In this document: piece after piece, positions 5,702 through 64,000 of the stretch | Layout of the letters: every line of letters starts with the position of its first letter | Position numbering within the stretch: the stretch's first letter is position 1 | DNA from: a virus | DNA length: 64,000 nt | IMG/VR virus record: IMGVR_UViG_3300040758_000214 | Location: 1 to 64,000 of that record | Reading direction: 5' to 3' (one strand) | Translations under genes and position numbers: made by a program | The notes under the pieces: generated by a model | The model's input: the letters and a program-made list of their open reading frames with translations, nothing else | Database searches by the model: none | Told to the model about the DNA's origin: nothing

Positions 5702-5824
5702 ATGTCGTGCCAATCATGTAAAAATAGTTCTGAACTAAAAAGATTAAAAAAACGAAGAGAAGAACTTGATAAGATTGTTCAAAATATAAAAGATAAATTA
5801 ATTGGAGTAATAAAAAATGACTAA
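5702..5824 (+). CDS. Small CxxC, coiled-coil protein, 40 aa
   Basis: ATG at 5702 opens a 40-codon frame beginning MSCQSCKNSSELKRLKK. It has one CxxC pair and a charged helix. AGAGGT lies upstream and the stop overlaps the start of the next gene, so translational coupling is likely. It is too short to classify; the CxxC near the N-terminus suggests metal binding. Confidence 0.6.
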   Translation: MSCQSCKNSSELKRLKKRREELDKIVQNIKDKLIGVIKND

Positions 5825-6146
5825 AAAAAATACTATTGTTAGGGATTATCTAAATAAATTATATGAGCAAGAAAAGAAAGAAATTGAATATAATACCGGG
5901 TATGATGAAGACGCTCCAGATGAATTTGGTGAAGAATATAATAGCGTTGAAGGTCAACCAGATGAAGATTTTGTAAAGGAATGTTCATGCGTTGAATGTA
6001 AAAAGTCTTGTCATGAATGTACATGTAATAAAGTAAAAGAACAAATGACTTCATCGGCTGCCGGAATAGGTGGATGGGAATCAATTGGAAATAATGAAAA
6101 GGAAAGATCTGGAATAAAAAAGTCGACTCCATTTGTAAAATATTGA
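5817..6146 (+). CDS. Hypothetical acidic Cys-rich protein, 109 aa
   Basis: The N-terminal half is charged and acidic. Residues about 56-72 hold a Cys cluster, CSCVECKKSCHECTC, that could bind zinc or an iron-sulfur cluster. The C-terminus is Gly/Ser-rich. It overlaps the preceding 40-aa CxxC gene and ends just before a strong terminator, so the two form the end of this rightward unit. No family was recognised. Confidence 0.65.
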   Translation: MTKKNTIVRDYLNKLYEQEKKEIEYNTGYDEDAPDEFGEEYNSVEGQPDEDFVKECSCVECKKSCHECTCNKVKEQMTSSAAGIGGWESIGNNEKERSGIKKSTPFVKY

Positions 6147-12953: not shown

Positions 12954-14252
12954 TTATTTATCTTTTAGATTATGAATTGGGATTATTTGATCAATAATTT
13001 TACATGTTGGTTTTATCAATTCTTTTATTAACTCTGTATTTTTGTACGCATCTGGAGCTTCATCAATTGTGGACTTTCCAACACTTGTTGAAAATATTCC
13101 ATCCATTTGCTTTTCAAATTTTTTAACATCTAATTTTTCTTTTGCTTTACCTCGACTTAAAACTCTTCCGGCACCATGTGGAGCAGAGTAATTCCATTCA
13201 GGATTTGAGAGACCAGAACATATAAGCATACCATCTCTCATATTAAATGGAATAATCATTCTTTCGCTTATGTATGATCTTATGGCTCCTTTCCTTATTA
13301 TAAAATCTTGAAAGTCAATATAATTATGAATTGATTCAATTTTATCGTATGCTTTCCAATCTAAATTTTTACATATAATTCTAATCATTTCATCTCTATT
13401 AACTTTAGCATAAATCTGGCAAAATATCATATCTGTTAAATAACCAACTGCATCGCTTGACTCAAGCCATTCTAAACCACTTGTTTTTATTCCGTAACCT
13501 AGGATATCCTTCTCTTGTTTAATACGAGTCTCAACCTCTCTACTTGAGTAATTTGCCTTAATTTCTTGTATCTTTTGTTGTAATTCTTCACCTTTTTGTT
13601 TAGCCATATTTTTAATTGCTATGTTTTGCCAATATTCACATATTTGTTTTCCAAATTGTCTTGATCCTGAATGAACTGTTAACCATTTATCTTTTGTTAT
13701 ATTAGATTTACCAATTTCTATGAAATGATTTCCACTCCCAAGCGACCCTAAACTATTGATAAACCTAGAGAAATTCATTCCAATCTGATTACATTTACTT
13801 TCAACCCAATCAGGTGAATATAATGGGTATTCAATTTTAACTTTTAAAACTTCTGAATATTTCATAAAGAATTGCCTGGCTATTTCATTAGTTTCTTTAT
13901 AAGGAAAGTCATTTAAACGATATGGATTTTTATGACGGACACTCGTTCCAAATGGAATACTTTCTCTTATAATTTCATCTGCTTCTTTATGATTGATTCC
14001 AATTCTTCCAATATTAATAGATGTCATCCCACAACCAATATCAACACCTACAACGTTGGCAATTATTTTATCAGTCATTAACATCGTAAATCCAATTACG
14101 CTTCCCTTTCCAGCATGAGTATCTGGCTGGATAACTATTGGATTTGTAAATGCTGGATGATTTAAAAAGTTGGTAATTTGTCCAATACATGATTCTTCAA
14201 CATCATCAATCATAATTTTAGCTTTTGTATATTTGCCACTCATTTCAAACAT
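12954..14252 (-). CDS. rtcB: RtcB-type RNA 3'-phosphate/5'-OH ligase
   Basis: The RtcB motifs are present in order: PDTHAGKG (about 43-50), VGVDIGCGM with metal ligands Asp71 and Cys74, SLGSGNHFIE, VHSGSRQFG and APHGAGRVLSR, where His359 should be the guanylylated residue. The length (432) is typical. RtcB joins RNA 2',3'-cyclic phosphate or 3'-phosphate ends to 5'-OH ends in a GTP- and Mn-dependent reaction. In the same operon as a Thg1-like polymerase it points to repair of cleaved tRNA, for example after host anticodon-nuclease attack. No archease gene was seen. Confidence 0.95.
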   Translation of the reverse strand: MFEMSGKYTKAKIMIDDVEESCIGQITNFLNHPAFTNPIVIQPDTHAGKGSVIGFTMLMTDKIIANVVGVDIGCGMTSINIGRIGINHKEADEIIRESIPFGTSVRHKNPYRLNDFPYKETNEIARQFFMKYSEVLKVKIEYPLYSPDWVESKCNQIGMNFSRFINSLGSLGSGNHFIEIGKSNITKDKWLTVHSGSRQFGKQICEYWQNIAIKNMAKQKGEELQQKIQEIKANYSSREVETRIKQEKDILGYGIKTSGLEWLESSDAVGYLTDMIFCQIYAKVNRDEMIRIICKNLDWKAYDKIESIHNYIDFQDFIIRKGAIRSYISERMIIPFNMRDGMLICSGLSNPEWNYSAPHGAGRVLSRGKAKEKLDVKKFEKQMDGIFSTSVGKSTIDEAPDAYKNTELIKELIKPTCKIIDQIIPIHNLKDK

Positions 14253-29353: not shown

Positions 29354-29602
29354 TTATTTCCTTTTTACAGTATGAACTAAACTAGGCCAAGGTTCGTATT
29401 TATAACATGTTCCACCATTAGGCCATGAACTTTCAAATGGAGTAACTCCATTTTTACATAAAGTAAATCTAATCAACTCATCGAAGAATGAATGTTTACA
29501 TCTCAAACATATTTCAGCGTAATAAGATGAGTGTTTGTAATAAAACTCCACAACATTAGGAATATATGGATTACAAATTATAGGGGCAGGAACATCTATC
29601 AT
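29354..29602 (-). CDS. Cys-knuckle family protein K8, 82 aa
   Basis: The signature is CLRCKHSFFDELIRFTLC, followed by a Gly-rich loop with one more Cys (GGTCYKYE). Its start lies 32 nt inside the end of the radical SAM gene, so translation of the two is likely linked. Confidence 0.66.
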   Translation of the reverse strand: MIDVPAPIICNPYIPNVVEFYYKHSSYYAEICLRCKHSFFDELIRFTLCKNGVTPFESSWPNGGTCYKYEPWPSLVHTVKRK

Positions 29603-30590
29603 TTAATAACCTTTCTCTGAATTTTTGAAATAACTCAGTATTCCATGCATTTTTAATTGATGTATTGAGTAAAGAAATACCTTCAGAATGATTACCAAAA
29701 GAACATGGAACTAATTTTAAATCATTAGTTATATATACAGACATTCTTCCACCTTCACAAGTATCTATAGATTCAATTTGTTCTTGTGTTAATTCAGTCC
29801 CAGATTTCATAACTTTATTTATTAAACATGAATCTGCACCTAATGAATAATTTACACCTCTACATTGTCTTAGAGCTTGAAATCTTTCACTTGTTAAAAT
29901 ACGAGAGAAAATATTTAGGTTAATATCTCTCATTTGCCAATCTAAATCTTTTCCTTTCCCTTGAGGTTTAAATAAAAGAAAAATCACAGCATTTAATTTA
30001 GTAATATCAAATTTATCTTCAAATCTTTCACTTCCATTTAAAATTTTAAGAGATGGAATAAAAGATTTATTAGATAAAATATAATGAATATTTGTTCTAA
30101 CTCCAGCATCTATAAATCTTTTAAGGGCATCTAATGTATACTCTGGATATTTCTTTTCATCATTAAGATTGCAGCTTACAGCAACTGCCCCTACATATTC
30201 TTTTGATATTTTAATTTGTTCATCTGTTAAACAATTTCCACTTGTTGTATAATTTGGAACTATATTATTATCTCTGCAATACTTTAGTATATCTTCAAAA
30301 TTTTCATGTTGATTAGGATCTCCTTTACCTCCTAACGCAACTTGATTAACATATGGTTTAGCTTCATCAATTAATTTAGTAAAATTTGAAAATGTCATAT
30401 TTGGTTCGTTCTTTTCACCTTGATAACAAAACTGACAATCATTTGAACAATGCCCCATAATGCCTACATCCATTAATATAGGAAAATCTAAAACAAATGG
30501 GTCTTCATGACCATTAATTCCTTCAAGAGTTTCTTCTCCAGTTTCTGTATTAAATTCAATTTTATATCTATCAGTTTGTACGGTTTTCAT
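29571..30590 (-). CDS. Radical SAM enzyme with C-terminal Cys-rich (SPASM-like) region
   Basis: Counting from the ATG at 30590, Cys48, Cys52 and Cys55 (CSNDCQFC) form the CX3CX2C [4Fe-4S] site. ALGGKGDPN fits the Gly-rich SAM-binding region, and later motifs fit the TIM-barrel core. The last 80 residues hold five more Cys (DTCEGG, VPCSFG, DRCSCP), suggesting an auxiliary cluster as in SPASM-type peptide- or protein-modifying enzymes. The natural substrate is unknown; the K8 protein encoded in overlap is a candidate. Confidence 0.88.
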   Translation of the reverse strand: MKTVQTDRYKIEFNTETGEETLEGINGHEDPFVLDFPILMDVGIMGHCSNDCQFCYQGEKNEPNMTFSNFTKLIDEAKPYVNQVALGGKGDPNQHENFEDILKYCRDNNIVPNYTTSGNCLTDEQIKISKEYVGAVAVSCNLNDEKKYPEYTLDALKRFIDAGVRTNIHYILSNKSFIPSLKILNGSERFEDKFDITKLNAVIFLLFKPQGKGKDLDWQMRDINLNIFSRILTSERFQALRQCRGVNYSLGADSCLINKVMKSGTELTQEQIESIDTCEGGRMSVYITNDLKLVPCSFGNHSEGISLLNTSIKNAWNTELFQKFRERLLNDRCSCPYNL

Positions 30591-30603
30591 TATATTCACC
30601 TTT

Positions 30604-41014: not shown

Positions 41015-41176
41015 TTATCCTTTATAAAATTTAATAAGATGAACTAAAAATGTAACACCATAAAAAATTGAGGCAAATAAAATAGTATCTTTATAACGTC
41101 TTAGAACATTTAATTCCCACCATAAAAGAAAAAATATAGTTCCCCAAATAACAGAAATTGGTATATCAATTGACAT
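41015..41176 (-). CDS. Two-helix membrane protein, 53 aa
   Basis: The ATG at 41176 overlaps the end of the CCA-type gene. Two hydrophobic helices (ISVIWGTIFFLLWW and ILFASIFYGVTFLVHLI) are separated by a basic RRYKD loop, predicting both ends outside. Confidence 0.55.
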   Translation of the reverse strand: MSIDIPISVIWGTIFFLLWWELNVLRRYKDTILFASIFYGVTFLVHLIKFYKG

Positions 41177-42530
41177 TGGATTTCTCCTCATAAAACTCTT
41201 TAATGATTTTTGTTAAATCTTCTTTATTATTCAATTCTGGATTTTCTAAAACTTGGTCCATCAAATAGTTTAAAATTTCACCTATTATTTTACTGGGTTT
41301 AATATTTAGAATTTCTTGAATATCATTGCCGTCTAATTCTAAATCATTAAAACATCCAACTTGATTAGGTCTATTAACTTCAATTTTGAACATTCTATTT
41401 AATTTCTTAGTTTTATAAAATCTTTTTTTCTTATCAAGATTATATCTTCCAGATGTATCACAAAAATTTACTCTTAATAAATCTTTATAATGTAATGACC
41501 TTTCATTTAATATTCTTAGAATTCTTCTTATACATTTTTGAGTTAATTCATCTGGAGGCATAACTCTCATATGTAAATCTGTTAATCCGGTAATAAAATT
41601 AATCTCTTTAGAACTAAATGTTAATTTTAATAATTCTTCTTTTAATTGTTTAGCCCCTATATGAGCATGATCTAAAAAGAAATAATCATTAGTTCTTGGA
41701 TTTATTTTACATACTAAAGGTTTTCCTACATCATGTAAATAAGCAGATAATTTAACTAATTTATTTTTTATTGGAGCACTATCTCCACTTAACATTAAAT
41801 GTGTAAAAATATCTTCTACATGATGTGGGCCATGAGGATGATTATAACATGAAGTCATTGATGGAAATATATGTTCCAATCCCCCTATTGAATGTAATGA
41901 TTCAAAAAATATTGATGCTTTTTTTATTTCCATTGCCTTAAGAATTTCAAGTCTAATTCTTTCAGGATTAACATGAGATTCAATAGTACTTGAATATTCC
42001 TTTAAAGCTTTAAATGTTTCAGATTCAAATTCTCCATCAATTTTTGCTTTAAATCTACATGCTCTAATAATCCTATTTGGGTCTTCAAATATTCTTTTAT
42101 GAGGATCTCCAATAAATCTTATAATCTTTTTTTCTAAATCTTCTCTACCATTATGATAGTCAATTATTTTATCTTTAATTGGATCATATGCGATAGAATT
42201 TATGGTTAGATCTCTCCTTGCCAAATCTTCTTGTAAGGATGGAGTAAAATTAATTTGAACTGATTTATCATCTAATCCATTATATTCATCTGTTCGATAT
42301 GTAGCAACTTCAATATCATTAATTAATAAAACTCCAAAACTTTTTCCCACTTCTTTTATACTACATTTATAATTTTTGAAAATTGAAGATATTTCATCTG
42401 GAGTTGCATTTGTAACTATATCATAGTCCTTAGATTTTAAACCTAAAATCATATCCCTAACACAGCCTCCTACGAAATAAACTTCAAATTTATTAGTATG
42501 TAAAATTTTAATTATTTCAATTGCTGTCAT
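41166..42530 (-). CDS. cca: CCA-adding / poly(A) polymerase family nucleotidyltransferase
   Basis: The class II nucleotidyltransferase head is clear: GGCVRD (21-26), DYDIVT with Asp37 and Asp39, ARRDLTINSIAYD, and a later FEDPNRIIRACRF. An HD domain follows (YLHDVGKPLV), as in bacterial CCA enzymes with added phosphatase activity. At 454 residues it is within the usual range. It builds or repairs tRNA 3' CCA ends, complementing RtcB and Thg1 in tRNA repair. Confidence 0.9.
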   Translation of the reverse strand: MTAIEIIKILHTNKFEVYFVGGCVRDMILGLKSKDYDIVTNATPDEISSIFKNYKCSIKEVGKSFGVLLINDIEVATYRTDEYNGLDDKSVQINFTPSLQEDLARRDLTINSIAYDPIKDKIIDYHNGREDLEKKIIRFIGDPHKRIFEDPNRIIRACRFKAKIDGEFESETFKALKEYSSTIESHVNPERIRLEILKAMEIKKASIFFESLHSIGGLEHIFPSMTSCYNHPHGPHHVEDIFTHLMLSGDSAPIKNKLVKLSAYLHDVGKPLVCKINPRTNDYFFLDHAHIGAKQLKEELLKLTFSSKEINFITGLTDLHMRVMPPDELTQKCIRRILRILNERSLHYKDLLRVNFCDTSGRYNLDKKKRFYKTKKLNRMFKIEVNRPNQVGCFNDLELDGNDIQEILNIKPSKIIGEILNYLMDQVLENPELNNKEDLTKIIKEFYEEKSNVN

Positions 42531-45387: not shown

Positions 45388-46104
45388 ATGAAGTATTCAT
45401 TTGCTGCATTAGGAGAAAATATATTAACTCGTAAATTCGGAGGATCAGCTTCTACGGGTGCTGCGGAGCCATATATTTCTGGCTATTTTTTCGTCTGGTT
45501 TGACAGACTACCTAATAACCTTATTAACTATACTCAATTAGGAAATAGTGGTCTTTCCTCTCTTAGTGATTGCCAAAATATTTTAAGTGCAAGTTGTACA
45601 GGTTGTACGCCCCCAGGCGGCACTTTAAACAAGGTTGAATATACCGGACTAGGTGGTGTTAAGTGGGCAGTTCCTGGTCATATTGATTATCAAAATTCGG
45701 TATCCTTAAAATTCATTGAATTTTATAGAACTCCAATTCTTGATATTATGCATGGGTGGGTAAAAATGATTAGAGATTATAGAACTGGTACTACAGATCT
45801 TCAAGCTGATGATTCTGGTCAGGGATATACGAAAAATGATTACTCTGGGACGATATACTATTGGACTACAACTCCTGACGCAAAAAATGTTGAGTATTTT
45901 GCATGTTATGATGGATGTTTCCCTGCAAAAGATCCACAAGATTTATATCATGGTGATGTTGAAACTGTAGGAAGATTAGATGTTGAAATTGAATTTAACG
46001 TAGATTATATTTGGCATGAACCTTGGGTTAGAGAAAAATGTCAGAGTTTAGTTTCTGTATTCCAAGCAGCAAAGCAGACTGTTCAAAATTATCAGGAACC
46101 TTAA
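45388..46104 (+). CDS. Tail tube-like protein, 238 aa
   Basis: The stretch SVSLKFIEFYRTPILDIMHGWV and MIRDYRTGTT resembles T4 gp19-type tube proteins, in which a beta-barrel strand pair precedes a helix packing in the ring. A Cys-rich loop (SASCTGCTPPGG) is unusual. It begins a 14-kb rightward tail block. The assignment is by pattern and context, with moderate certainty. Confidence 0.68.
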   Translation: MKYSFAALGENILTRKFGGSASTGAAEPYISGYFFVWFDRLPNNLINYTQLGNSGLSSLSDCQNILSASCTGCTPPGGTLNKVEYTGLGGVKWAVPGHIDYQNSVSLKFIEFYRTPILDIMHGWVKMIRDYRTGTTDLQADDSGQGYTKNDYSGTIYYWTTTPDAKNVEYFACYDGCFPAKDPQDLYHGDVETVGRLDVEIEFNVDYIWHEPWVREKCQSLVSVFQAAKQTVQNYQEP

Positions 46105-46145: not shown

Positions 46146-46838
46146 ATGGAACTAACTGGCATGAAAATAAATGAACAAGATATGGAATGGGCGTGCAAGC
46201 AATATTTACTTGATCAAATTCCTTCTAGTAAATATATTCAATAAAATTCAACAGTAGATCAAAGACAACAATTTAAAGAATGGATTAAAAAAGCATCTTT
46301 AAAAGAAATTTTAGTTATTATAGAACAAGATAGTAAAAATAATATGTATTTAAATAAGGGATGGAAATATATTTATGGAGTAGGTTTAGCTGCGGCATTA
46401 GGTGGAATGGTTGGGGCCGCATCTTCTTATACTAGGAAAGGAGATGCTCTAGCCGTAGGTTCTATGTTGGCTAGCGCATCTACATTATTATATTATTTTT
46501 ATAAACGAAAAAAAGATCCATGTCATCAAAAATGCAAAGATGCATCGACTACACATAAATTTGGGGAATTAGAAAGATCTTTAAGGTATCAAATATGTAG
46601 AACAGAGTGTTCTATAGTTGCTGCAAAAGATGTATTAAGGCAAGTAACAAGTCAAAAAGGAAAATGCAGTAGTACAGAAAAACCAGAAAAATGTTTAAAA
46701 TCTTTATCTAAATTAGAATTAAAATGGAGACGTAAAATAGAAAACTTAGAAGATATATTACGTGATCTTAAACATAGATTTTCTACAGGAAAAACTAAAA
46801 CATCACCTATTAAATTACAACCTGCTTTTAAAAGTTAA
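46146..46838 (+). pseudogene. Family A membrane Cys protein, interrupted by in-frame TAA
   Basis: An ATG at 46146 with AGGAGG upstream opens a frame whose first 32 residues (DMEWACKQYLLDQ and SSKYI) match the N-terminus of family A paralogs at 49401 and 52055. TAA at 46242-46244 ends it. The same frame then continues to 46838 with a helix (about 65-120), DPCHQKCK, YQICRTEC and GKCSSTEKPEKCL. A single base change from GAA, AAA or CAA would explain the stop. Internal re-initiation at 46344 could still make the C-terminal part. Confidence 0.78.
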
Positions 46839-46854
46839 TGGAGATTAAACCCAA

Positions 46855-47610
46855 ATGAGTGCTATATCTGATTCCCTATTATTTCTTATCACATTACGCA
46901 AGACAATGTGTGAATTTATAGACAATTCTAAAATAAGTGATATTGATAAAGCTAAGGGTAAAAATTTTATAATGAATGAAGGTAGTGATTATGAGATTTT
47001 AACTTTAGCAGTAAGAGGACAAAGACCAACAGAAAAATATAATATAGTTGAAGAAAAGAAATTATTTGAAGATATTAAAAATTGTGTATCTAAGAATAGT
47101 GAAACTTTTAATAAACTATTATCTGAAAAAGTTGCAAAGGATTTTGCTAAAGATTTAACTCCATTATCTGAATATGGATTAACTTCTTGTGTTCCTATTA
47201 TGAATTTTATAATAGAACAACAAGTTTGGGGAAATGTTCAAAAAGCTGCAAGGGCTGAAAGATGGAAGGGAGTTGATGCAGGTATTGCAAAATTGAGGGC
47301 TACAAATGATATGTATGCTAAGAATAAAAAATTTAGCAAACAAGTTGGTGGAGCTTTATTAGCTGCTATGATTGCCTATGCGGCTTATAAAATATACAAG
47401 AATAAATTCAGTGCAGCAGCTAAAGCATGTAAAGGAAAGACTGGTCCTGAAAAAACTTTATGTATGAATAACTTTAAGGTTGCTGCAATTAAAGCACAAA
47501 TTGCTCAATTGAAGTCCGGTTCGTCTGGATGTAATTCATCTAAAGATCCTGTAAAATGTAAAGCTGTTATATTGGCTAAAATTAAGAAACTTGAAGGGAA
47601 ACTTAAGTAA
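46855..47610 (+). CDS. Family B membrane Cys protein 1, 251 aa
   Basis: The N-terminal domain has SLLFLITLRKTMCEFI and NFIMNEGSDYEIL, followed by a charged helical part. A hydrophobic helix (about 165-183, GGALLAAMIAYAAYKIY) leads into the terminal four-Cys helical hairpin: CKGKTGPEKTLC, QIAQLKSG, then GCNSSKDPVKC. The domain order is shared by three tandem genes. A membrane-anchored protein with a disulfide-like hairpin outside the reducing cytosol is plausible. GGAG precedes the ATG. Confidence 0.72.
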   Translation: MSAISDSLLFLITLRKTMCEFIDNSKISDIDKAKGKNFIMNEGSDYEILTLAVRGQRPTEKYNIVEEKKLFEDIKNCVSKNSETFNKLLSEKVAKDFAKDLTPLSEYGLTSCVPIMNFIIEQQVWGNVQKAARAERWKGVDAGIAKLRATNDMYAKNKKFSKQVGGALLAAMIAYAAYKIYKNKFSAAAKACKGKTGPEKTLCMNNFKVAAIKAQIAQLKSGSSGCNSSKDPVKCKAVILAKIKKLEGKLK

Positions 47611-47640
47611 TTTCAATGTAGGGCGGGGGTTATACTTTAG

Positions 47641-48465
47641 ATGAATAATTCATTACTTTTTACATTAGCCATTAGGAGAACTTTGTGTGAGTTCCTCAGC
47701 TATAGTCAGTTAGACTTAAAGGCTAAGAAATATTCTAAACATTTTGTTATGTATGAAGCAACTGATTATGAAATTATGTCGTTATTAATGACCGGAGATT
47801 ATCCTGTTAAGAAGTATAACCCTCTCAAAGAAGAAAAGTTATATAATCAATGTAAAAATATTATCTTAGAAAACATATCTGAAATCTCACCTTATATAGA
47901 AAAATCAATTTTAAAAAATATTATCACTGAATTAGCTCCTATTAAAGGTTCGTCTAATGTTTTATTAAAAGAATATATTAATGAGCAAATACAAGTCAAA
48001 CATCAAATAGATCCCCAAGGAAGACCAAATTGGAAAGCAATTGCTGGTGCTGCGTTTACTGCGGGAATGGCTGCAAATGTGGGAAATCCTTTAGGTAAAG
48101 ATTTATATGAATATGGTAAGAAAAATGCTAGGCAGGGATTAGCATCTCTTATGTCATATTTAAAATCTACAAATGGCAAAATGGTTGGATCTGTAATGGC
48201 TGCATCTTTGATTGTATATGCTTCTATAATTATATATCATAAATATTTTTCAAATGCAGCAGTTACATGTAAAAATTTAAAAGGAAATGAGAAAGATCAT
48301 TGTGTTAAAAAAATAAAAATGAATGCTTTAAAAAATCAAATTAATACATTAAAACAAGGAAGTTCTGCATGTTATAGTAAAGAGAATCAAGACAAATGCC
48401 AAAGAGTTATTAAAATGAAAATTCTAAAACTCCAACTTAGATTACAAAAATTGGAGCGGAGTTAA
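47641..48465 (+). CDS. Family B membrane Cys protein 2, 274 aa
   Basis: It has the same layout as the gene before: SLLFTLAIRRTLCEFL, FVMYEATDYEIMSLL, a hydrophobic stretch (about 180-200) and the terminal CKNLKGNEKDHC, INTLKQG and ACYSKENQDKC. It is the product of tandem duplication by pattern. The linker between the N-terminal domain and the membrane helix is longer and Gly-rich. Confidence 0.72.
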   Translation: MNNSLLFTLAIRRTLCEFLSYSQLDLKAKKYSKHFVMYEATDYEIMSLLMTGDYPVKKYNPLKEEKLYNQCKNIILENISEISPYIEKSILKNIITELAPIKGSSNVLLKEYINEQIQVKHQIDPQGRPNWKAIAGAAFTAGMAANVGNPLGKDLYEYGKKNARQGLASLMSYLKSTNGKMVGSVMAASLIVYASIIIYHKYFSNAAVTCKNLKGNEKDHCVKKIKMNALKNQINTLKQGSSACYSKENQDKCQRVIKMKILKLQLRLQKLERS

Positions 48466-48472
48466 ACATATA

Positions 48473-49390
48473 ATGAAAAATATTAAAGATTCAATGTTAT
48501 TTTTATTAATCACTAGAAAAACCATAAGTGATTTAATTGTTAGTGAATCTAATTTAAATCCTTCAGATAAAGTTTTAGCAAAAAATTTTATTATGAATGA
48601 AGCTACTGATTATGAAATTATGTCTGTATTAATGGAAAGTCAATTACCTAATGAACAATATAATGATATTAAAGAAGATAAATTATTTGAATCTTTAAAA
48701 AAATGTATATTAATAAATGAAAAAGTATTATCTAAATATATACCTAAAGAAACAATTCAATGTGTTTTAGAAATTGATTCAGTTTCTCAATATGGATTTT
48801 CTTCATCTATTCCTATAATGGAATATATGATTGAACAATATCAAGCTGATATGAGTGATGATGATTATCGTCATAGTGGTGGAAGTAATGTTGTAGGAAA
48901 AGCGGGCGAGGCAGGAATGACTGCTTTAATAATGAGGCCAAGAGGTGGATATAAACGAGCATTTACAAGATATAAAAATAGAAAATTACCAAAACAAATT
49001 GCAGCTGCAAAAGCATTACCGGCTAAAACAATGAATTTTTTAAGAACTGGAAGACAAGCTGCAATGAATGGAATTTCATCTGTTGTTAATTTTGCTAAAT
49101 CTGGTCCTGGAAAAGTATTAGGAATAGTTGCAATTGTTGCTTTAGTTGCTTTAGCTGCAAATAAAATTTATAGAGAAAAATTAAGTCAAGCAGCAAAAGC
49201 GTGTTCTAAATATACTGGCCCTGAAAAACAAAATTGTATGAGAGGATTTAAAAGAACAGCTCTTTCTGCTCAAATTGCTCAATTAAAAGCTGGATTAGCT
49301 GCATGTAAAGGAACAAATAATCCAGAAGGTTGCCAAAATAAAATTGCTAAAAAAGTAGCATCATTACAAAGGAAAATATCTAAAATATAA
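48473..49390 (+). CDS. Family B membrane Cys protein 3, 305 aa
   Basis: The longest family B copy: SMLFLLITRKTISDLI, FIMNEATDYEIMSVL, an extended basic linker (RGGYKRAFTRYKNRKLPK), a helix (VLGIVAIVALVALAANKIY) and the terminal CSKYTGPEKQNC, QIAQLKAG and ACKGTNNPEGC. The N-terminal Cys of the other two copies is absent. Confidence 0.72.
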   Translation: MKNIKDSMLFLLITRKTISDLIVSESNLNPSDKVLAKNFIMNEATDYEIMSVLMESQLPNEQYNDIKEDKLFESLKKCILINEKVLSKYIPKETIQCVLEIDSVSQYGFSSSIPIMEYMIEQYQADMSDDDYRHSGGSNVVGKAGEAGMTALIMRPRGGYKRAFTRYKNRKLPKQIAAAKALPAKTMNFLRTGRQAAMNGISSVVNFAKSGPGKVLGIVAIVALVALAANKIYREKLSQAAKACSKYTGPEKQNCMRGFKRTALSAQIAQLKAGLAACKGTNNPEGCQNKIAKKVASLQRKISKI

Positions 49391-49400
49391 AGAGGATAAT

Positions 49401-50102
49401 ATGGAACCTAAACTTGATAAGAAAGCTCTTGAATGGGCTTGTAAACAATTAATATTAACTTCTGCAAAAAATAGTAAATATTTAAAAGAAAATTCTGAAA
49501 GTAAAGAAAGAATATTATTTGCTAAATGGGTTAAGGGATTAACATATAATCAAACATTAGGAATTTTATTTGAGCAAAATTATAAACCAAATACTCAAAA
49601 AATTAGAGATATTGAAGACGCCTATGCTATATTATCATTATTAGGATTTGCTTCATATCTAGGAACAGGAGCTGCAACATTAAAAAATATATTTCAAGAT
49701 AGAACGGGTAGAGCTGGAATATATTTTGCATCACATATATTAACTACAGCTTCTATGATTTTATATTATAAATATAAACAATATAAAGATCCTTGTTATC
49801 AAAAATGTAAGAATGTTTTACCTGCGCATATTAGAAATAGATATGAAGAACGTCACAGTTTAGAGGATCTACCTGAATATAATGTTTGTACTACTAAATG
49901 CGCATTAGACGCTGCTATTAATATATTAAGACAAATTAAAGGAGAAAAAGGAAAATGTTCTAGAACAGAAAAACCAGAAAAATGTATAGAACGATTAAAT
50001 AAATTAGAAATAAAATGGACTGAAAAAGTTAAAGATTTAAAAGATAGTTTGATAAAATATGAAAAAGAAGCTAGAGAGGAAAGAGAAACTCGTAAATATT
50101 AA
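49401..50102 (+). CDS. Family A membrane Cys protein, 233 aa
   Basis: Starts LDKKALEWACKQLILTSAKN and continues with KWVKGLTYNQTLGILFE. Hydrophobic stretches lie about 78-128. The C-terminal region has twin CX3C pairs (CYQKC and CTTKC) and GKCSRTEKPEKC, followed by KLEIKWTEKV. It is the intact paralog of the broken gene at 46146. It lies between family B copies and the gp26-like gene. Confidence 0.74.
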   Translation: MEPKLDKKALEWACKQLILTSAKNSKYLKENSESKERILFAKWVKGLTYNQTLGILFEQNYKPNTQKIRDIEDAYAILSLLGFASYLGTGAATLKNIFQDRTGRAGIYFASHILTTASMILYYKYKQYKDPCYQKCKNVLPAHIRNRYEERHSLEDLPEYNVCTTKCALDAAINILRQIKGEKGKCSRTEKPEKCIERLNKLEIKWTEKVKDLKDSLIKYEKEAREERETRKY

Positions 50103-50128
50103 ATCAACCAACGAAAGGAAATCAAAAA

Positions 50129-50917
50129 ATGTTTAGAGGATTCAATTTAAAGTATCCGGAATACGAAGTAATCACACCTCAGACTAAAAGATCATTTACT
50201 TTGAGGTCATTGAATGTCAGTGAAGAAGAGAATATGAAAGGGAGTATGATGACTCCATTGAAAATTACGGAGCATCTTAATTCATGTATTTATGAAGTCT
50301 TAATTAAAAAGCCAGATGATATTACTGACTTTAAATCTTTTTTAACTAAGACTACAATTAAAGATAGAGAAGCTTTATTGTATGGTCTTTATCATATTAC
50401 ATATGAAGAGATTAGAAATTATGAAATAAAATGTGCAGCATGTAAAAAGGATTATCCTGTTACAGCTAAAGCATCTGATATGTTTGGATTCAATATTTAT
50501 CCTAGTGATGATAATATATTAGACATACGTATTAGAGTTGATCTTCCTATATCTAAAGGTATTTCAGTTTATATTAAACAACCATCTTTAGAAGATGAAG
50601 TTTCATCTTTAAAAAATTATGCAACTTTAGCTGGAACTAATATGGATATTATCACTCAAACATTAATAATTGATAGATTTGAACAAAGTACTGATTCACC
50701 TGACCCAATTATTTATGATCAACGTGGTGATATTATAGATGCATATAGAAGTTTACCTTCTAAAGACAGAAAAGAAATCAATGCTAAATATACTGAAAAT
50801 TTTGGTAAATATGGTATTGAATTAAAAATGAGAACTTTCTGTCCATCATGTTCCAATGAGGAGGTAATCAATATCGACCTTGTCGAAAACTTTTTTCGTA
50901 TGGTGTACACGGTATGA
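50129..50917 (+). CDS. T4 gp26-like baseplate hub protein, 262 aa
   Basis: The order CAACKKDYPV and later TFCPSCSNEEV (two CxxC pairs), together with REALLYGLYHITYEEI, resembles T4 gp26-type baseplate hub assembly proteins. It is followed by a small gp51-like overlap gene and then gp25, as expected for a baseplate locus. The Cys pairs may form a zinc site. Assignment by motif and gene order. Confidence 0.68.
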   Translation: MFRGFNLKYPEYEVITPQTKRSFTLRSLNVSEEENMKGSMMTPLKITEHLNSCIYEVLIKKPDDITDFKSFLTKTTIKDREALLYGLYHITYEEIRNYEIKCAACKKDYPVTAKASDMFGFNIYPSDDNILDIRIRVDLPISKGISVYIKQPSLEDEVSSLKNYATLAGTNMDIITQTLIIDRFEQSTDSPDPIIYDQRGDIIDAYRSLPSKDRKEINAKYTENFGKYGIELKMRTFCPSCSNEEVINIDLVENFFRMVYTV

Positions 50918-51098
50918 TAATATAAGTGAGTTTAAGAAAAATTTACAAGAAAATATTTTTGCATGTAAAGAATTAACTGGAGAAGGATATATAGACATAA
51001 TGTCCTTACCTGTTGAAAGATTCTATGGTCTTATAAAATGGAAAACAGACTTAGAAAAAGATAAGCAAAAGATGATGAACGAAAAAATACAAAAATAG
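50880..51098 (+). CDS. Small baseplate-associated protein, 72 aa
   Basis: It overlaps the gp26-like gene by 38 nt in another frame. The only usual start codon in the open frame is TTG at 50880, 14 nt after GAGGAGGT, a long spacing; the product could otherwise arise by frameshifting. It contains NIFACKELTGEGYIDIMSLP and a charged helix. T4 gp51, a hub assembly protein, is the best positional match. Confidence 0.55.
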   Translation: MSKTFFVWCTRYDNISEFKKNLQENIFACKELTGEGYIDIMSLPVERFYGLIKWKTDLEKDKQKMMNEKIQK

Positions 51099-51108
51099 GA
51101 TATAATAA

Positions 51109-51543
51109 ATGGCCTCAATTCTAGACAAATTTATTAATAACTCTATAGGTGCACGTGGTAGGATTACAGATTATACATCTACTATTACACCATCTGGAGA
51201 CTTTGATAGAATTTATGAATTAAATGCTATTTTAATGTCATGGAATACTATATTAATTACTCCATTAAGAAGTTATACATATGATCCTGATTTTGGTTCT
51301 GAGTTATATAAATATGTATTTGAACCGTGTGATGATTTTACAAAAGATGAAATTCAAAATGAGATTAAATTAAGATTAACAACATATGATGATAGAGCTT
51401 CTATTGAATCAATTGATATTTCATATTTTCCTAATAAAAAAGGATTCACTGTAAATATAATAGCAAATTATCAAGGAACTACTGGGAGTTTAAATACTCC
51501 TATAGATCAATCTACATATTACAATTTCTTGAGATCTCAATGA
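51109..51543 (+). CDS. GPW/gp25-type baseplate wedge protein
   Basis: LNAILMSWNTILITPLRSYTYDPDFGSELYKY is the GPW/gp25 core, a lysozyme-like fold without lytic residues that sits at the wedge-sheath interface. At 144 residues it matches the family. It is followed by a 4-nt overlap with the next gene. Confidence 0.9.
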   Translation: MASILDKFINNSIGARGRITDYTSTITPSGDFDRIYELNAILMSWNTILITPLRSYTYDPDFGSELYKYVFEPCDDFTKDEIQNEIKLRLTTYDDRASIESIDISYFPNKKGFTVNIIANYQGTTGSLNTPIDQSTYYNFLRSQ

Positions 51544-52040
51544 AAATATTCTATTATTTTGTATTAAAGAATTATCGTGGATTATTTCGTAAAAAGTTTG
51601 TTGGGAATACCCACTTATTCTTAATTCCTAGAGCTGGTGATGATTATCTATATTTAGCCCTTTTAGGAAATATTGTAGATGAAGATAATTCATATGCTTG
51701 CGTATTAATATCAAGAATTCCTGATGATTTATTAGATGAAATAATTAATGGTGAACATAAACATTTTGGTGAAAGATTTGAATTAATTGATGAAATAAAA
51801 GTGAACACTATTAATGAGAATAAAGGTGAATATGAAATAAAAGTATTAAGTAAAAGTCAGCATATTCTTTCCGATTTAGAAATGATATATAATGAAGACT
51901 TAAGTTCAAATTCAAAAAGGATTTATATTATTAAAGGTAAATTAAATTTATCAACAGAAGATGTTGGATTAGATTCAACACTTAGAATTGATGCTTATAA
52001 AAAGTTAGCATTAGTTTCTAATAAAAATAGGAAAGTCTGA
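51540..52040 (+). CDS. Hypothetical baseplate-locus protein, 166 aa
   Basis: A soluble protein with a basic first third (NYRGLFRKKFVG) and an acidic middle (ISRIPDDLLDEI). Four-base overlap with gp25 indicates coupled translation, so a virion assembly role is likely. No family was recognised. Confidence 0.6.
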   Translation: MKIFYYFVLKNYRGLFRKKFVGNTHLFLIPRAGDDYLYLALLGNIVDEDNSYACVLISRIPDDLLDEIINGEHKHFGERFELIDEIKVNTINENKGEYEIKVLSKSQHILSDLEMIYNEDLSSNSKRIYIIKGKLNLSTEDVGLDSTLRIDAYKKLALVSNKNRKV

Positions 52041-52054
52041 TCGGGGAGGATATG

Positions 52055-52630
52055 ATGACTAAAGAAATTAAACTTGATAAAAAAGCTCTTGAATGGGCTT
52101 GTAAACAATTAATGATAAACTCAGCTAAAAATGATAAAGTAATTAAAGAAAGTACTTCATTATCGGAACATGTAAAATTCATTAGTTGGATTAATGAATT
52201 ATCTTATATTCAAACCTTAATGTTATTCTTTGATAATAAATATATTAAAGTTAATGAACAACATGTAGCTGAGCCTCAGATTAGACAAAAAGAGTCTAAA
52301 ATTAAAACTGCTCTAAAATATGGATTGGCTGGTGTTGCTGGAGGTATGGTTAATAATGGAACAGGATTAGCTGCAATGTTAGTTTATTATTTTTATAGAA
52401 GATCAAATGATGTTTGTCACAATCAATGTAAAACATCAGCTGATAGTAAGAAATGCCAATATATTTGCAGAGTTACTGCAGCTAATCAAGTTTTAAATAA
52501 TATTAAATCTGAAATAGGTAAATGTAATAAAATGTCTAAACCTGATAAATGTAGAAATAATTTACAAAAGATGGCTAATAAATGGAACAAAATATTGATG
52601 CATAATAAGGCTAAGTTGGATCAATTATAA
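52055..52630 (+). CDS. Family A membrane Cys protein, 191 aa
   Basis: Begins LDKKALEWACKQLMINSAKN and has the GLAGVAGGMVNNGTGLAAML hydrophobic part. It ends with CHNQC, CQYIC and GKCNKMSKPDKC, then KWNKIL. The second ATG (52055) is the better start because the first is only 2 nt from GGAGG. It is the shortest full-length copy. Confidence 0.73.
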   Translation: MTKEIKLDKKALEWACKQLMINSAKNDKVIKESTSLSEHVKFISWINELSYIQTLMLFFDNKYIKVNEQHVAEPQIRQKESKIKTALKYGLAGVAGGMVNNGTGLAAMLVYYFYRRSNDVCHNQCKTSADSKKCQYICRVTAANQVLNNIKSEIGKCNKMSKPDKCRNNLQKMANKWNKILMHNKAKLDQL

Positions 52631-52651
52631 ATAATGGAGGATAGAAAACAA

Positions 52652-53362
52652 ATGGAAAAGAAAGTGGTAAAAAAGGAAGTTAAGAAAGAAGTAAAGAAAC
52701 CTGTTCAAGAATCAAAAGAAATAGTTCTTGATAAAAAGGCTTTAGAATATGCTATTAGAAAAATGTTATTCTCCTCTATTTCTGAGAGTAAAATTCTAAG
52801 AGAAAAATTATCTTTTGATGACCATATTAAACTTTGCGAATGGACTACTAAACTTACTTATGAAAATTTAATCCTTGTTTATTTAGGTGAGAATCCTAAG
52901 TCTAAATTAAATGAACAAGATGCAGGTAAAATTAGAGATTTTGAAGGAAGAGCTAAAACCGCTATGAAATATGGCTTTGCTGGTCTTGCCGGTGGATATG
53001 GTATTAAAAAGGCTGCTGGTAAAATAGGTGTTGCATCTAAACTTCCTGGTGCAACTAAAACTATTGGCGCAGCAATGTTGGCATTTTATATATTTAGAAA
53101 ATTTACAGATCCATGTTTTAGAAAATGTTTAGGTACAGGCACTTTAGGTGTAATGGGCAAGAAACATAAACTTTGTAAATATGAATGCCAAATTAATGCA
53201 ATAAAAACTGTATTAGGGCAGCTCAGAAGTCAAAAGAGTGTATGTGCTAAAACTCATAATCCAGAAAAGTGCCTAAGGCAATTATCTAAGCTCGAAATTA
53301 AATGGGCTAAAAAATTACAAGAAACTTTAGCTAAATTTAATGAAACCCGTGCAAAGATATAA
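52652..53362 (+). CDS. Family A membrane Cys protein, 236 aa
   Basis: A Lys/Val/Glu-rich start (VVKKEVKKEVKK) precedes the usual LDKKALEYAIRKML domain. It ends with CFRKC, CKYEC and VCAKTHNPEKC, then KWAKKL. An ATG at 52634 also opens the frame, but GGAGG overlaps it, so 52652 is preferred. Confidence 0.72.
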   Translation: MEKKVVKKEVKKEVKKPVQESKEIVLDKKALEYAIRKMLFSSISESKILREKLSFDDHIKLCEWTTKLTYENLILVYLGENPKSKLNEQDAGKIRDFEGRAKTAMKYGFAGLAGGYGIKKAAGKIGVASKLPGATKTIGAAMLAFYIFRKFTDPCFRKCLGTGTLGVMGKKHKLCKYECQINAIKTVLGQLRSQKSVCAKTHNPEKCLRQLSKLEIKWAKKLQETLAKFNETRAKI

Positions 53363-53897
53363 ATCAATAAAGTCATTTATATTAGAGACAATTTCTAAGA
53401 GTAAAATATTACGAAAGAAATTGTCTCTATCAGAACATCTAAAATTGTATAAATGGGCTACACAATTAAATGAAGATCAACTATGTGATTATTTATTTGA
53501 ATCTAATCATATTCCTAATTACACAGTTCAAAAAATTTTAGATGTAGGATTGGCTGCTGCAGTAATAGCACCTATTCCTGGGAGTGAATGGTTATTTTTA
53601 GCTGTAAGATATTTAGAAGAAAATTTTAGTAAACAGTGTTTGAAAAAATGTGAATCAAGAAAACATGAAAAGCAAATTTGCTATTGGAGCTGTCATCTGG
53701 ATTCAATAATTAAAGTTAGAACAATTATAGAACAAGAATATAATAAATGTCGTTATGAACCATTAGAAAAATCAAAAAATAAATGTTTTAAAAAACTAGG
53801 ATATTTATTAGGTAGATGGAAAGATAGAGAATTAAAAATTAAAAATAAAGTAGATATAATGCAAAGAATGAAAGTCATTAATAGACTACGGAGATAA
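53340..53897 (+). CDS. Truncated family A Cys protein, 185 aa
   Basis: It overlaps the previous gene by 23 nt and lacks the LDKKALE start. SEHLKLYKWATQLNEDQL matches the paralogs' middle, and CLKKC, CYWSC and KCRYEPLEKSKNKC form the terminal Cys hairpin. The hydrophobic region is shorter. This looks like an N-terminally shortened duplicate. Confidence 0.68.
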   Translation: MKPVQRYKSIKSFILETISKSKILRKKLSLSEHLKLYKWATQLNEDQLCDYLFESNHIPNYTVQKILDVGLAAAVIAPIPGSEWLFLAVRYLEENFSKQCLKKCESRKHEKQICYWSCHLDSIIKVRTIIEQEYNKCRYEPLEKSKNKCFKKLGYLLGRWKDRELKIKNKVDIMQRMKVINRLRR

Positions 53898-53902
53898 TCA
53901 TA

Positions 53903-54544
53903 ATGCAATTGTATAACAGAATATATGATTACATTAAAGACTATCAAAGTTTAGTATATGACACATATAGCAAACATGTAGTTGCATATCCTATTACATA
54001 TTATCATTTAGATATAACTACAGTTGTATGGGATGATAAGAACCTCATGGGCGGATACTATGAAAGGATTGGTGAATTATCAGGATTGAAATGGGATAAA
54101 ATATTATTGCTTCCTGTTTATTATACTGAAGAAATGATTGCTCAATGGAATGCTGAAGATATAGGTTATGTATCATTTACTGAAACTTATGCCATTATTC
54201 CTGAGACTTATGGATTTATACCTTATCCAAATGATGTAATAAAAATAGATCAATTGTATCAACCACAACCTGATAATAAATATACTATTTATACATGTAC
54301 TGGAGTTTCAAAAAGTACAACAGATAAAGTTTTTTATAAATTACATTTTGAGGTTGAACAATCTAGAACTCCAGCTGATATGGATTTACAATTATCAAAT
54401 ACTTATACATGGTTAGATTATACTAAAAAGATTCATACTTTAAATGATGCAACATTCTTAACAAATATGTTATCTAAAAATCAACAATTGAAGGAAAATT
54501 CAAAAATAAAGTATGATAAGAATGTAGGATATTATTTTTTATAA
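53903..54544 (+). CDS. Probable virion protein, 213 aa
   Basis: A soluble protein with no signal or Cys motif, rich in Tyr and Asp (YLDYTKKIHT, LPVYYTEEMI). It lies in the tail block between the Cys paralogs and a small secreted protein. No family was recognised. Confidence 0.6.
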   Translation: MQLYNRIYDYIKDYQSLVYDTYSKHVVAYPITYYHLDITTVVWDDKNLMGGYYERIGELSGLKWDKILLLPVYYTEEMIAQWNAEDIGYVSFTETYAIIPETYGFIPYPNDVIKIDQLYQPQPDNKYTIYTCTGVSKSTTDKVFYKLHFEVEQSRTPADMDLQLSNTYTWLDYTKKIHTLNDATFLTNMLSKNQQLKENSKIKYDKNVGYYFL

Positions 54545-54557
54545 GAAAGGAAAAGTG

Positions 54558-54929
54558 ATGAACAAATTAATTTCATTATTTATTCTATTATTTATAATGG
54601 GATCTTATAATTTAGTTTATGCAATAGATGGATTTATATCTGCAGAAATTGATTCAGATGTTTATGGTAAACATTTAGCTCCAGATTTTCAAGGGCAATT
54701 AGGACAAGTGTTTGGTGATTATAGAATTTATGGAGCTTTTGAAAGATGTAATGAAACTCCAATATTTACTAATAGTGATGAACATTACAGACTTGGAATT
54801 GAATATAATCATTTTGATAACTTAAAATTAGAAGCTGGGCCTGGATTATATCACGGACGAGCTTTTTTATTTGGGAAAATTACATACTCATTTGATACAT
54901 CGAGGAAAGGAGATGCCAAAACTAAATAA
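54558..54929 (+). CDS. Small secreted or outer-membrane-like protein, 123 aa
   Basis: The ATG at 54558 gives a signal peptide (LISLFILLFIMGSYNLVYA). The rest has alternating strands such as YRLGIEYNHFDNLKLEAGP and ends with FGKITYSF, the aromatic C-terminus pattern of small outer-membrane barrels, then a short polar tail. A phage protein that changes the outer membrane is possible. An upstream GTG is an alternative start. Confidence 0.62.
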   Translation: MNKLISLFILLFIMGSYNLVYAIDGFISAEIDSDVYGKHLAPDFQGQLGQVFGDYRIYGAFERCNETPIFTNSDEHYRLGIEYNHFDNLKLEAGPGLYHGRAFLFGKITYSFDTSRKGDAKTK

Positions 54930-55263
54930 TTGGATTGATAAAATTTGTATTACTATATCTGATTTATTAGGAACTAATTTTTGTATATTTATATTTATAC
55001 TTATAGCATTTGTTCCTTTATATTATCAAACACCAAAAACAATATCAGAATGGCAAAATTGGTTAAGCCAAACATGTATTCAATTAGTCGCTCTTGCAGT
55101 ATTACAAAAAGGAACTAAAATTGAAGGTAATCGTACATATAATATGCAAAAAGAAACTCATGATACAGTAATGAATGAATTTGCTGAAGTTAAAGAAATG
55201 CATGAGTTCTTACTGAAAGAGATAAAAGAAACTAAAATATATTGTAAAGGATGCAAGAATTAG
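54913..55263 (+). CDS. Membrane protein with C-terminal helix, 116 aa
   Basis: The ATG at 54913, after AGGAAAGG, starts inside the end of the previous gene. Residues about 22-40 form a hydrophobic helix (FCIFIFILIAFVPLY) and a second weak one follows. The C-terminus is a charged helix ending IYCKGCKN. It is unclassified. Confidence 0.6.
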   Translation: MPKLNNWIDKICITISDLLGTNFCIFIFILIAFVPLYYQTPKTISEWQNWLSQTCIQLVALAVLQKGTKIEGNRTYNMQKETHDTVMNEFAEVKEMHEFLLKEIKETKIYCKGCKN

Positions 55264-61537: not shown

Positions 61538-64000
61538 TTAAAATAGATTACCATGAGCAACATTATGTAATTCTGCATCAAATGGATTTTGATGTTGCCC
61601 ACTATTATTTGTAGTATTTATATTTTTTATAGATGATGCAACATTATTTGTGCTTACCACTAAATTATTTCCAAGTGTTGTTAAATTTCCCATTGCTGCA
61701 GCTTGAAATTTTTCATTTGAATTTTTCATAGCGTCTATCTGCAACGATTCTTTAGCAACATGCATATCTACTAATTCTTTTTTAGAGAATGCATTATAAT
61801 ATTTTTTAACTTTTTCTATATATTGGCGTGTTTCTTTTACTGGATGAGAAGCTCCTCTTCCCCCACCATTATAATAGCCTAAAGCTTTATCTAAATTACC
61901 ATGATATTTGTTTAATAAATATAATAAAAATTTAGTTCCCCCCCTTACATTTTGTACCGGATCATATGCATTTGTGACGCCCAGTTGCCTTGCAGTAGGA
62001 GGCATTAATTGCATTAATCCCTGGGCTCCTCTACTAGATGTAGCATTTGGGTTTCCCCCACTCTCCGCTTGAATGACGGCTTTTACTAAATCACTACCAT
62101 TAACTCCCCAATTTTTAAAGTCAAATGTTTTACCAAATCCTAGATCATCAATACTCCATCCTTTTTTTCCAGTCCTAGCAGCTGGATTTTTAGAAGCAGG
62201 TGCATTTGGAGCAGGTCTCATATTATTAGGAACTGCACCATTTCCAATATTAACTTCAGGAAATAATTTAGAAAATTGAGATAACCATTCACCACCTTTC
62301 CATCCAATTATTGCTCCTCCTAATATACCCATTGGATTCCCACCAGTGGCAACAGCTCCCAAAGATGCACCAATTACAGCCCCTTCTATTTTCATAGATC
62401 GTTTACTTAAAAAACTAAAAGTAGATTGAACAACATCTTCAATTGTATCAACCGGATGTTGAATAACTTTCATAGCTCTCATTGCAATACTTTCTATTCC
62501 TTCCCACATTCCATTCAATGATTTAGCAATTCTTTCAGGTCCAATATATCCAAATATTCCACCTATTAAAGCTCCAACAGGAGGCCCAAATGGGGGAGCC
62601 AACATTCCAATGACCATACCTCTCATTGCACCAAAGAATGCACCTTCCATTTTTCCTAAGAATCCATGGAATCCTCCTTTAGATTGACCATAATCTCCAC
62701 CACCTAAATATCCACCTAAAGTAGAGAAACTTTTTTGAGCACCAGTTGCTTTACCACCAAACCATTCATTAGACTTTCCCTCGCCAGCAAAGGCATTCAT
62801 TAGGGAATCTACAATTCCTAATATTCCAGCTCCTTTTAAACCACCTCTAGCAATTGCACCTTTATTATTCCATAGACCTTTTGCTCCACCCCATAATCCT
62901 TTACCTAAAAATTTTGCTCCGGACCATGCCATTTTACCCATAGCTAAAGGTATAGTCCACTTAAAGAATTTTAAAAGTTTAAATATTTTTTCTCCGCCCC
63001 AAAATCCAGCCTTGAATATAGGACCTAAAAATGGTATTCCTCCTAAGAAACCTTTTACTCCTGAATATAATGCCATTATCATTAAACCTAGATCACTAAA
63101 GAAACCTTTACCTTTTTTATACATAGTATGAACACCTTCTTTAGTTCCTTCGGTTGCATCTTGAATTTTCTTTAATCGTTTATCCATTGTACTATTTTTG
63201 GCAACATCTATATATTCCGCATCAATATATCCGGCTCCACCTGTCAATAATTTTTGACCGCCACCAATTTGACCATATTTTCCTCTTCTAAATTTATTTG
63301 CTATCCAACCAAACATTCCGCCTAAACCTATTGCTGAGGCTACGGCTCTAATTCTTTGATAATTTGTATATGTTTGATTCCCAGGAGGTGCAACATCTTC
63401 ACCTGTAATTTTTTCACTTAATCTTCTTAAGTAGAAAATCATTTGGTCATATCTTTCCATACTTCTTACATAAGTTATAGCTAAAATATTGGCCATATTT
63501 TCTTGAACATTTGTGGAATGTGGTAATTCTCTTTCATACCTATTTCTAACTTTGAATAAGAATTTTGGTATTTTATTAAATACTGAATCTAAGACATGTA
63601 ATCCTGTTGCTACTTTTCTAAAGAATGGATTTTGCATTACATATTTAATTAAGTGAGATTTAAGATCAAGTCCCATTCCAGTCATTGCTAATTTTAAACT
63701 AAATAATGTATTATAAATTTTAGATAACCAACCACCTTTATCTAAGCTAACTTTACTATTCAATAATTGTTCTGTTGAATATTTTCCTTTTTTAAATAAT
63801 TTACTTATTGGAGAAACTACTTCACCAGCATGAACGTATACAACTCCACCTTTAGATATTAATCCTCCGGATTGTAATTTTGGAATATTTTTTGCTCTAA
63901 TACTTGCATTGGAAGGTGAATCAAAATAATCATCGGATTCATTTAATCCTTGTTTTTTTCTACGTCTTCTTGCTCTAAATTCTTCAAATGTAATTGCGGA
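61538..64000 (-). CDS. Tape-measure protein with lytic transglycosylase domain, 5' partial
   Basis: The frame is open past the window edge, so the N-terminus is missing; about 820 residues are visible. Near the visible start, [28 protein letters not shown] resembles the tape-measure/tail-tip family. The middle is Gly-rich with several hydrophobic helices ([16 protein letters not shown]). About 180-280 residues from the C-terminus lies an SLT domain: [28 protein letters not shown] and ALGYYNGGG, with Glu as the catalytic acid. It should set tail length and open the cell wall on injection. Confidence 0.88.

Follow-up and report, generated by a model that had tools for sequence, protein, structure and literature searches.

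The analyzed stretch of DNA (hereinafter, the window) comprises bases 1–64,000 of the 143,060 bp record of an uncultivated virus with a G+C content of 28%, and carries a baseplate locus transcribed from the plus strand. The locus is anchored by a tail-tube-like virion gene (45388–46104; 59–76% identity across relatives), a second tube paralogue that matched the PHROG profiles of virion structural proteins (4.6e-10) and tail tubes (0.0016), and whose product is probably the tube initiator. It is followed by A-type copy 1 (46146–46838), broken by an in-frame TAA, by three B-type copies, namely, 46855–47610 (251 aa), 47641–48465 (274 aa) and 48473–49390 (305 aa; hydrophobic helix at about residues 215–233), and by A-type copy 2 (49401–50102, 233 aa). 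Downstream are a gp26-like baseplate gene (50129–50917; T4_baseplate, Pfam PF12322, 8.9e-12; PHROG 150, 5.8e-13), a small gene in the gp51 position (50880–51098) and a gp25-like baseplate wedge or sheath initiator gene (51109–51543; PHROG 261, 1.1e-18; PHROG 43, 9.4e-14). A-type copies 3 (52052–52630, 192 aa), 4 (52634–53362, 242 aa) and 5 (53340–53897, 185 aa) come next, and a conserved gene of unknown function (53903–54544; 48–60% identity in relatives) closes the locus. Thus, the eight homologous genes claimed in the preliminary description are borne out by the alignments between the tube-like gene and the 53903 gene; of the neighbors named there, the gp26-like and gp25-like genes have profile matches, whereas the gp51-like gene is assigned by position and conservation only.

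The frame starting at 46146 meets the TAA at codon 33 (46242–46244), where paralogue 49401 has Glu. Downstream, copy 1 is otherwise intact and conserved, with the remainder open from 46344; a strong Shine–Dalgarno sequence precedes 46146, and none was found before the ATG at 46344. TAA is the commonest stop codon of the genome (47 of the 67 genes of at least 100 aa), which rules out genome-wide TAA recoding; since TAA is a normal stop here, copy 1 would be a nonsense mutant or contain a sequence error, and the codon may reflect either of these or an unusual decoding. Contig L029, which belongs to an identical phage, ends short of this TAA.

Shared genes place the phage among the relatives of AR9 and phiR1-37: the sheath, tube-like, gp26-like and gp6-like genes are homologous, and multisubunit RNA polymerase genes occur as two sets. 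The beta/beta-prime genes of these sets were located at L032:1268–7480 (84.8–91.0 kb of the genome) and L034:11279–18438 (133.8–140.9 kb), an arrangement comparable to the virion and non-virion polymerases of AR9 and phiKZ. Several other genes should be mentioned. The 674 aa product of L034:5006–7030 (minus strand) matched PHROG 1735, of unknown function, over its full length (1.8e-277) and is conserved far beyond the remainder of this divergent phage. The window also encodes an RtcB-type RNA ligase and a tRNA nucleotidyltransferase (12954–14252 and 41166–42530), representing tRNA repair or maintenance, an Fe-S oxidoreductase or radical-SAM-like protein kept in many relatives (29571–30599), and a small acidic protein in which cysteines are densely clustered (5817–6146; CSCVECKKSCHECTC). 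Two small genes without counterparts in relatives (54555–55263) separate the 53903 gene from the gp6-like gene; the product of one has a signal peptide and looks beta-rich and outer-membrane-like, and that of the other has a membrane helix and bears CKGC at its C terminus.

Shared C-terminal module and its cysteines

Profiles seeded from the A-type or the B-type copies converged on the same 57 genes, and the set was enlarged to 161 distinct members of 81–501 aa, some of these being fragments. In hhalign comparisons, homology was evident between the A and B tails (94.8%, E = 5e-8) and between the B heads and those of a third type, MDxNK (95.8%, E = 7e-9), whereas no relation was detectable between the A and B heads (2.2%). 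Consequently, the two groups described previously were recovered in the alignments, but not as separate families: according to these comparisons, A and B are one C-terminal module carried on at least two different heads. The module consists of a Gly/Ala-rich hydrophobic helix and basic Cys hairpins, and the linker joining it to the head is very variable in length and often Ala/Lys-rich. An A-type head is joined to a B-type tail in L008:10886–11563 and L041:5256–6128, two heads stand in tandem in L026:9776, and L030:895 and L087:10711 are A–A fusions. In L098:8607–9941, the Cys module is followed by an additional C-terminal domain of about 200 aa.

Four Cys columns were 98–99% conserved in 132 non-redundant C-terminal domains, whereas no other column exceeded 89%, so the layout is not due to chance. 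The pattern C-x10-C-x22-C-x8-C was found in all three B copies, and the twin CX3C ascribed to the A copies is likewise present; their terminal C-x8-C holds in four, the 53340 copy having C-x11-C (C5-x11-C6), and the reported KGxC occurs in only some of them. Most tails (108 of 132) had only C2, C3, C5 and C6, 17 had all six cysteines, with the two CX3C motifs forming an inner and an outer pair in the helical hairpin, and seven had other states. The spacing C3-x22-C5 was kept in 124 of 127 tails. Significant covariation was limited to C1–C4, C2–C3 (the twin CX3C) and C5–C6, the remaining pairings being non-significant at 0.05, which agrees with the disulfide-type pairing proposed earlier. For C1–C4, both residues were present in 20 tails and both absent in 111, the one discordant case being a truncated ORF (Fisher p = 9e-23, relatedness ignored); in L105:10782, exactly C2 and C3 were lost, with C1 and C4 kept. 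In a tree built without the Cys columns, C1 changed four times and C4 five times, and the changes occurred together; only two fell on well-supported branches, too few to give a sign test for C1–C4 any power.

The AlphaFold2 models of a B protein (48473; mean pLDDT 80, pTM 0.76) and an A protein (mean pLDDT 76.8) placed the cysteines at two helix turns, with the pairs 244/255 and 278/287 in B (Cys 244, 255, 278 and 287 of 48473) and 161/185, 165/181 and 204/213 in A (Cys 161, 165, 181, 185, 204 and 213 in the 52634 copy), these pairs being deduced solely from helix borders. Taken with these predicted models, the covariation supports disulfides stapling a helical hairpin and a third helix. Members free of Cys also exist (e.g., L106:7983, L099:7983 and L096:3523), each followed by a Cys-bearing copy.

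The hydrophobic stretch noted in the preliminary description is real, but only moderate (KD19 of 0.97–2.19 in the window copies, with 46855, 52052 and 52634 below 1.3 over 19 residues). A KD19 of at least 1.6 was reached by 35% of the family vs. 9% of other genes. The most hydrophobic 17-residue stretch, composed of Gly/Ala/Ser by 47%, ended no more than 30 residues before C2 in 87% of 126 members (median 14), and the 17 residues preceding the Cys module had a median KD of 1.67, with at least 1.5 in 68% (KD scale only). The tail is basic, its median net charge being +12 in the 132 non-redundant domains. Thus, the layout of conserved cysteines and hydrophobic helix is kept in relatives, although a few members lack Cys.

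Distribution, rate of change and likeness to known proteins

To describe the placement of the family, slot 1 was defined as the interval from the tube-like gene to gp26, and slot 2 as that from gp25 to the 53903 homologue. In 83 distinct complete loci, collected through the tube-like or gp26 genes and not through the family, members occupied slot 1 in 66, slot 2 in 42 and either slot in 75 (90%), which upholds the earlier link to the baseplate genes. Among contigs found through the family itself, and hence subject to ascertainment bias, members followed the tube-like gene in 54 of 54 and preceded gp26 in 55 of 55; in the tube-ascertained set, either slot was occupied in 53 of 53. Universal presence, suggested by these two sets, was ruled out by the 8 of 83 loci with empty slots in the gp26-ascertained set. 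In seven of the eight, the tube-like gene lies almost adjacent to gp26; in the remaining one, a homing-endonuclease-like gene (L255:4136–4963) separates the two in the family's place. One of the eight loci has three copies elsewhere. As far as these loci indicate, the family, common among uncultivated relatives of the AR9/phiR1-37 jumbo phages, is near-universal in the clade, is dispensable at the baseplate site and tends to lie near tail genes. At second sites, members are found next to a gene for a virion structural protein or to a PAAR spike gene: in three relatives, they lie directly upstream of homologues of window genes 8335/8908/9752, and in the 97-kb relative G010, four members surround the PAAR spike gene (L042:5425–10727). 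It should be noted that contig L047, labeled Woesearchaeota in a hot-spring genome bin, has the same baseplate operon and clearly comes from a phage of this clade, so the label is probably due to mis-binning.

The family was absent from AR9, phiR1-37, phiKZ and RHph_Y65, with one borderline match in S6 (E = 0.0096); in AR9 and phiR1-37, the gp6-like gene directly follows the tube-like gene. When five members were used as tblastn queries, none of the 50,697 records of isolate phages gave a match.

One-to-one orthologues of copies 46855 (L008:8130–9152, 58% identical), 47641 (L008:9076–9993), 48473, 52634 (L008:13528–14334) and 53340 (L008:14327–14878) were identified in contig L008, the nearest relative; therefore, those duplications are not recent. 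The window copies shared 45–58% identity with their orthologues in L008, compared with 58–76% for most neighbors and 43% for gene 59311. The rapid adaptation to host surfaces inferred previously from the expansion is weakly supported, since five copies have orthologues, their identity is only somewhat below that of the neighbors and the family is near-universal. The family appears to evolve somewhat fast, which is no proof of such adaptation. An expansion of adhesins is disfavored by the near-universality, the orthologous copies and the all-helical models.

No significant profile match to the family was found in Pfam, PHROGs and NCBIfam, where only marginal and inconsistent matches appeared, or in the PDB, and Foldseek gave no match at E ≤ 0.001 for the B model (viral structures and PDB) or the A model (viral structures). 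The earlier statement that no known family could be recognized thus holds for these libraries, predicted viral structures and isolate phages, and the profile and fold searches yielded no functionally defined family. A literature search on paired-Cys proteins of this kind in phage baseplates found nothing relevant. The only PDB matches of the A-tail profile were Ole e 6 (E = 0.013) and Tim10B (E = 0.27), neither of which is significant. The small Tims (Tim9/Tim10) have a twin CX3C helical hairpin with C1–C4 and C2–C3 pairing [PMC3759932], and the A tails share this hairpin and pairing logic; however, small Tims are mitochondrial chaperones without the head, the membrane helix or the C5–C6 staple, and have no significant sequence relation to the family. 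Plant alpha-hairpinins are two antiparallel helices, often basic, with Cys1–Cys4 and Cys2–Cys3 bonds between two CX3C motifs [PMC7191063]. The staple logic of these and of Ole e 6-type hairpins is the same, whereas they are small secreted plant peptides and the family adds one more staple. The likeness to small Tims and alpha-hairpinins is one of form, not of membership.

Possible role in the tail and envelope

The reading that we favor, tentatively and as a possibility that falls short of probable, is that the family comprises tail-hub proteins that dock at the hub, are ejected on firing and insert into the envelope as delivery helpers. For the family, we infer from sequences and models mature disulfides, virion carriage, membrane insertion and a delivery role. 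Each protein would consist of a helical head, a variable linker, the Gly/Ala-rich hydrophobic helix and a basic tail of three helices, two of them forming a hairpin, in which C1–C4 and/or C2–C3 disulfides would staple one turn and C5–C6 the next. The proteins would be made with the baseplate, and their heads would dock at the tail hub, in the tube-initiator/gp26/gp25 region. Firing of the tail would expose or release them; the hydrophobic helix would then enter the host envelope, braced by the oxidized basic hairpin, and the inserted module would help the tape measure protein open a passage for DNA.

This account agrees with the covariation of paired cysteines and their position at helix turns in the models, with the small-residue-rich helix that immediately precedes the Cys module in most members, with the strongly basic tail, with the placement of the independently chosen loci beside the tube-like, gp26 and gp25 genes and with the second sites near virion and PAAR genes. 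If inserted at synthesis, the basic tail would be cytosolic under the positive-inside rule, where disulfides do not normally form; post-assembly insertion therefore fits better than insertion at synthesis, and carriage in the particle with later insertion or oxidation would reconcile the basic tail with disulfides. Against hub docking and envelope insertion are the only moderate hydrophobicity of the helix, the eight loci with empty slots, the Cys-free members, the lack of a homologue in an isolated phage and the fact that AR9 and phiR1-37 work without the family.

The moderate hydrophobicity would also suit plain baseplate parts, in which the small-residue-rich helix is packed within the hub or tube and the cysteines oxidize after lysis, toughening the particle without any membrane step. 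The location among virion genes is consistent with this alternative, which we consider somewhat unlikely, as paralogue number and linker length vary widely and the slot is empty in some loci. In T4, gp26 and gp51 are hub assembly genes, and the constant vicinity of the family to gp26-like and gp51-position genes, along with its hydrophobic helix, could point to assembly factors that nucleate or hold the baseplate hub in the producer's inner membrane during building and are not part of the virion. Such a role is unlikely, given that the basic tail predicts a cytosolic placement, where disulfides would not form, and that one to four copies with divergent heads would be unusual for a scaffold. 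The membrane-type helix, the paired cysteines and the copies at several sites might likewise indicate host-envelope proteins made during infection (for superinfection exclusion, envelope change or as a lysis aid) and merely encoded in the late operon; this is improbable considering that no signal peptide was seen, that the position inside the baseplate operon is near-fixed and that a positive tail speaks against a periplasmic C terminus.

Zinc binding instead of disulfides is suggested by the twin CX3C of the A tails and cytosolic synthesis, and small Tims can bind Zn through their twin CX3C in its reduced form [PMC3759932]. In the predominant C2, C3, C5, C6 state, however, 22 helix residues separate the pairs, and pairs are lost independently; four cysteines thus cannot meet within one chain, which makes this explanation very improbable. 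Their position after the tube-like gene and their hydrophobic helix might imply that the B proteins represent the tape measure protein or pieces of it; this is scarcely credible for side-by-side paralogues of such different lengths in a slot that may be empty, and was rejected in view of a separate tape-measure-like gene on the minus strand (61538 to about 64543, i.e., to window position 64000 and then L031:1–543), whose product of about 1,000 aa has hydrophobic segments rich in Gly and carries an SLT transglycosylase domain at its C terminus.

Tape measure and pilot or ejection proteins of tailed phages are linked to the tail and contain hydrophobic segments for which entry into the host membrane has been proposed [PMC5099701]. 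The family shares with them the tail linkage and the hydrophobic segment, but no paired-Cys module has been reported there and no sequence match to the family was found. The family is new and unnamed, and probably belongs to the already known kind of tail-associated proteins that interact with membranes. A bolder and rather doubtful extension of the favored hub-docked reading is that the tail-tip proteins become disulfide-locked in the host envelope: on firing, their Gly/Ala-rich helices would oligomerize in the inner membrane and the oxidized basic hairpins would brace the ring, so that they, and not the tape measure protein, would form the conduit or the neck of an early infection vesicle. 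The phiKZ inner tube has been seen attached to early vesicles derived from the inner membrane [PMC13282480]; a link between this attachment and the family is speculation.

None of the annotation libraries tested contained the family, whose probable disulfide fold would be uncommon for a phage tail module. Owing to its clade-wide range, baseplate linkage, membrane-type helix and strictly paired cysteines, it is a concrete candidate for the inner-membrane passage of DNA and large proteins by contractile-tailed giant phages.
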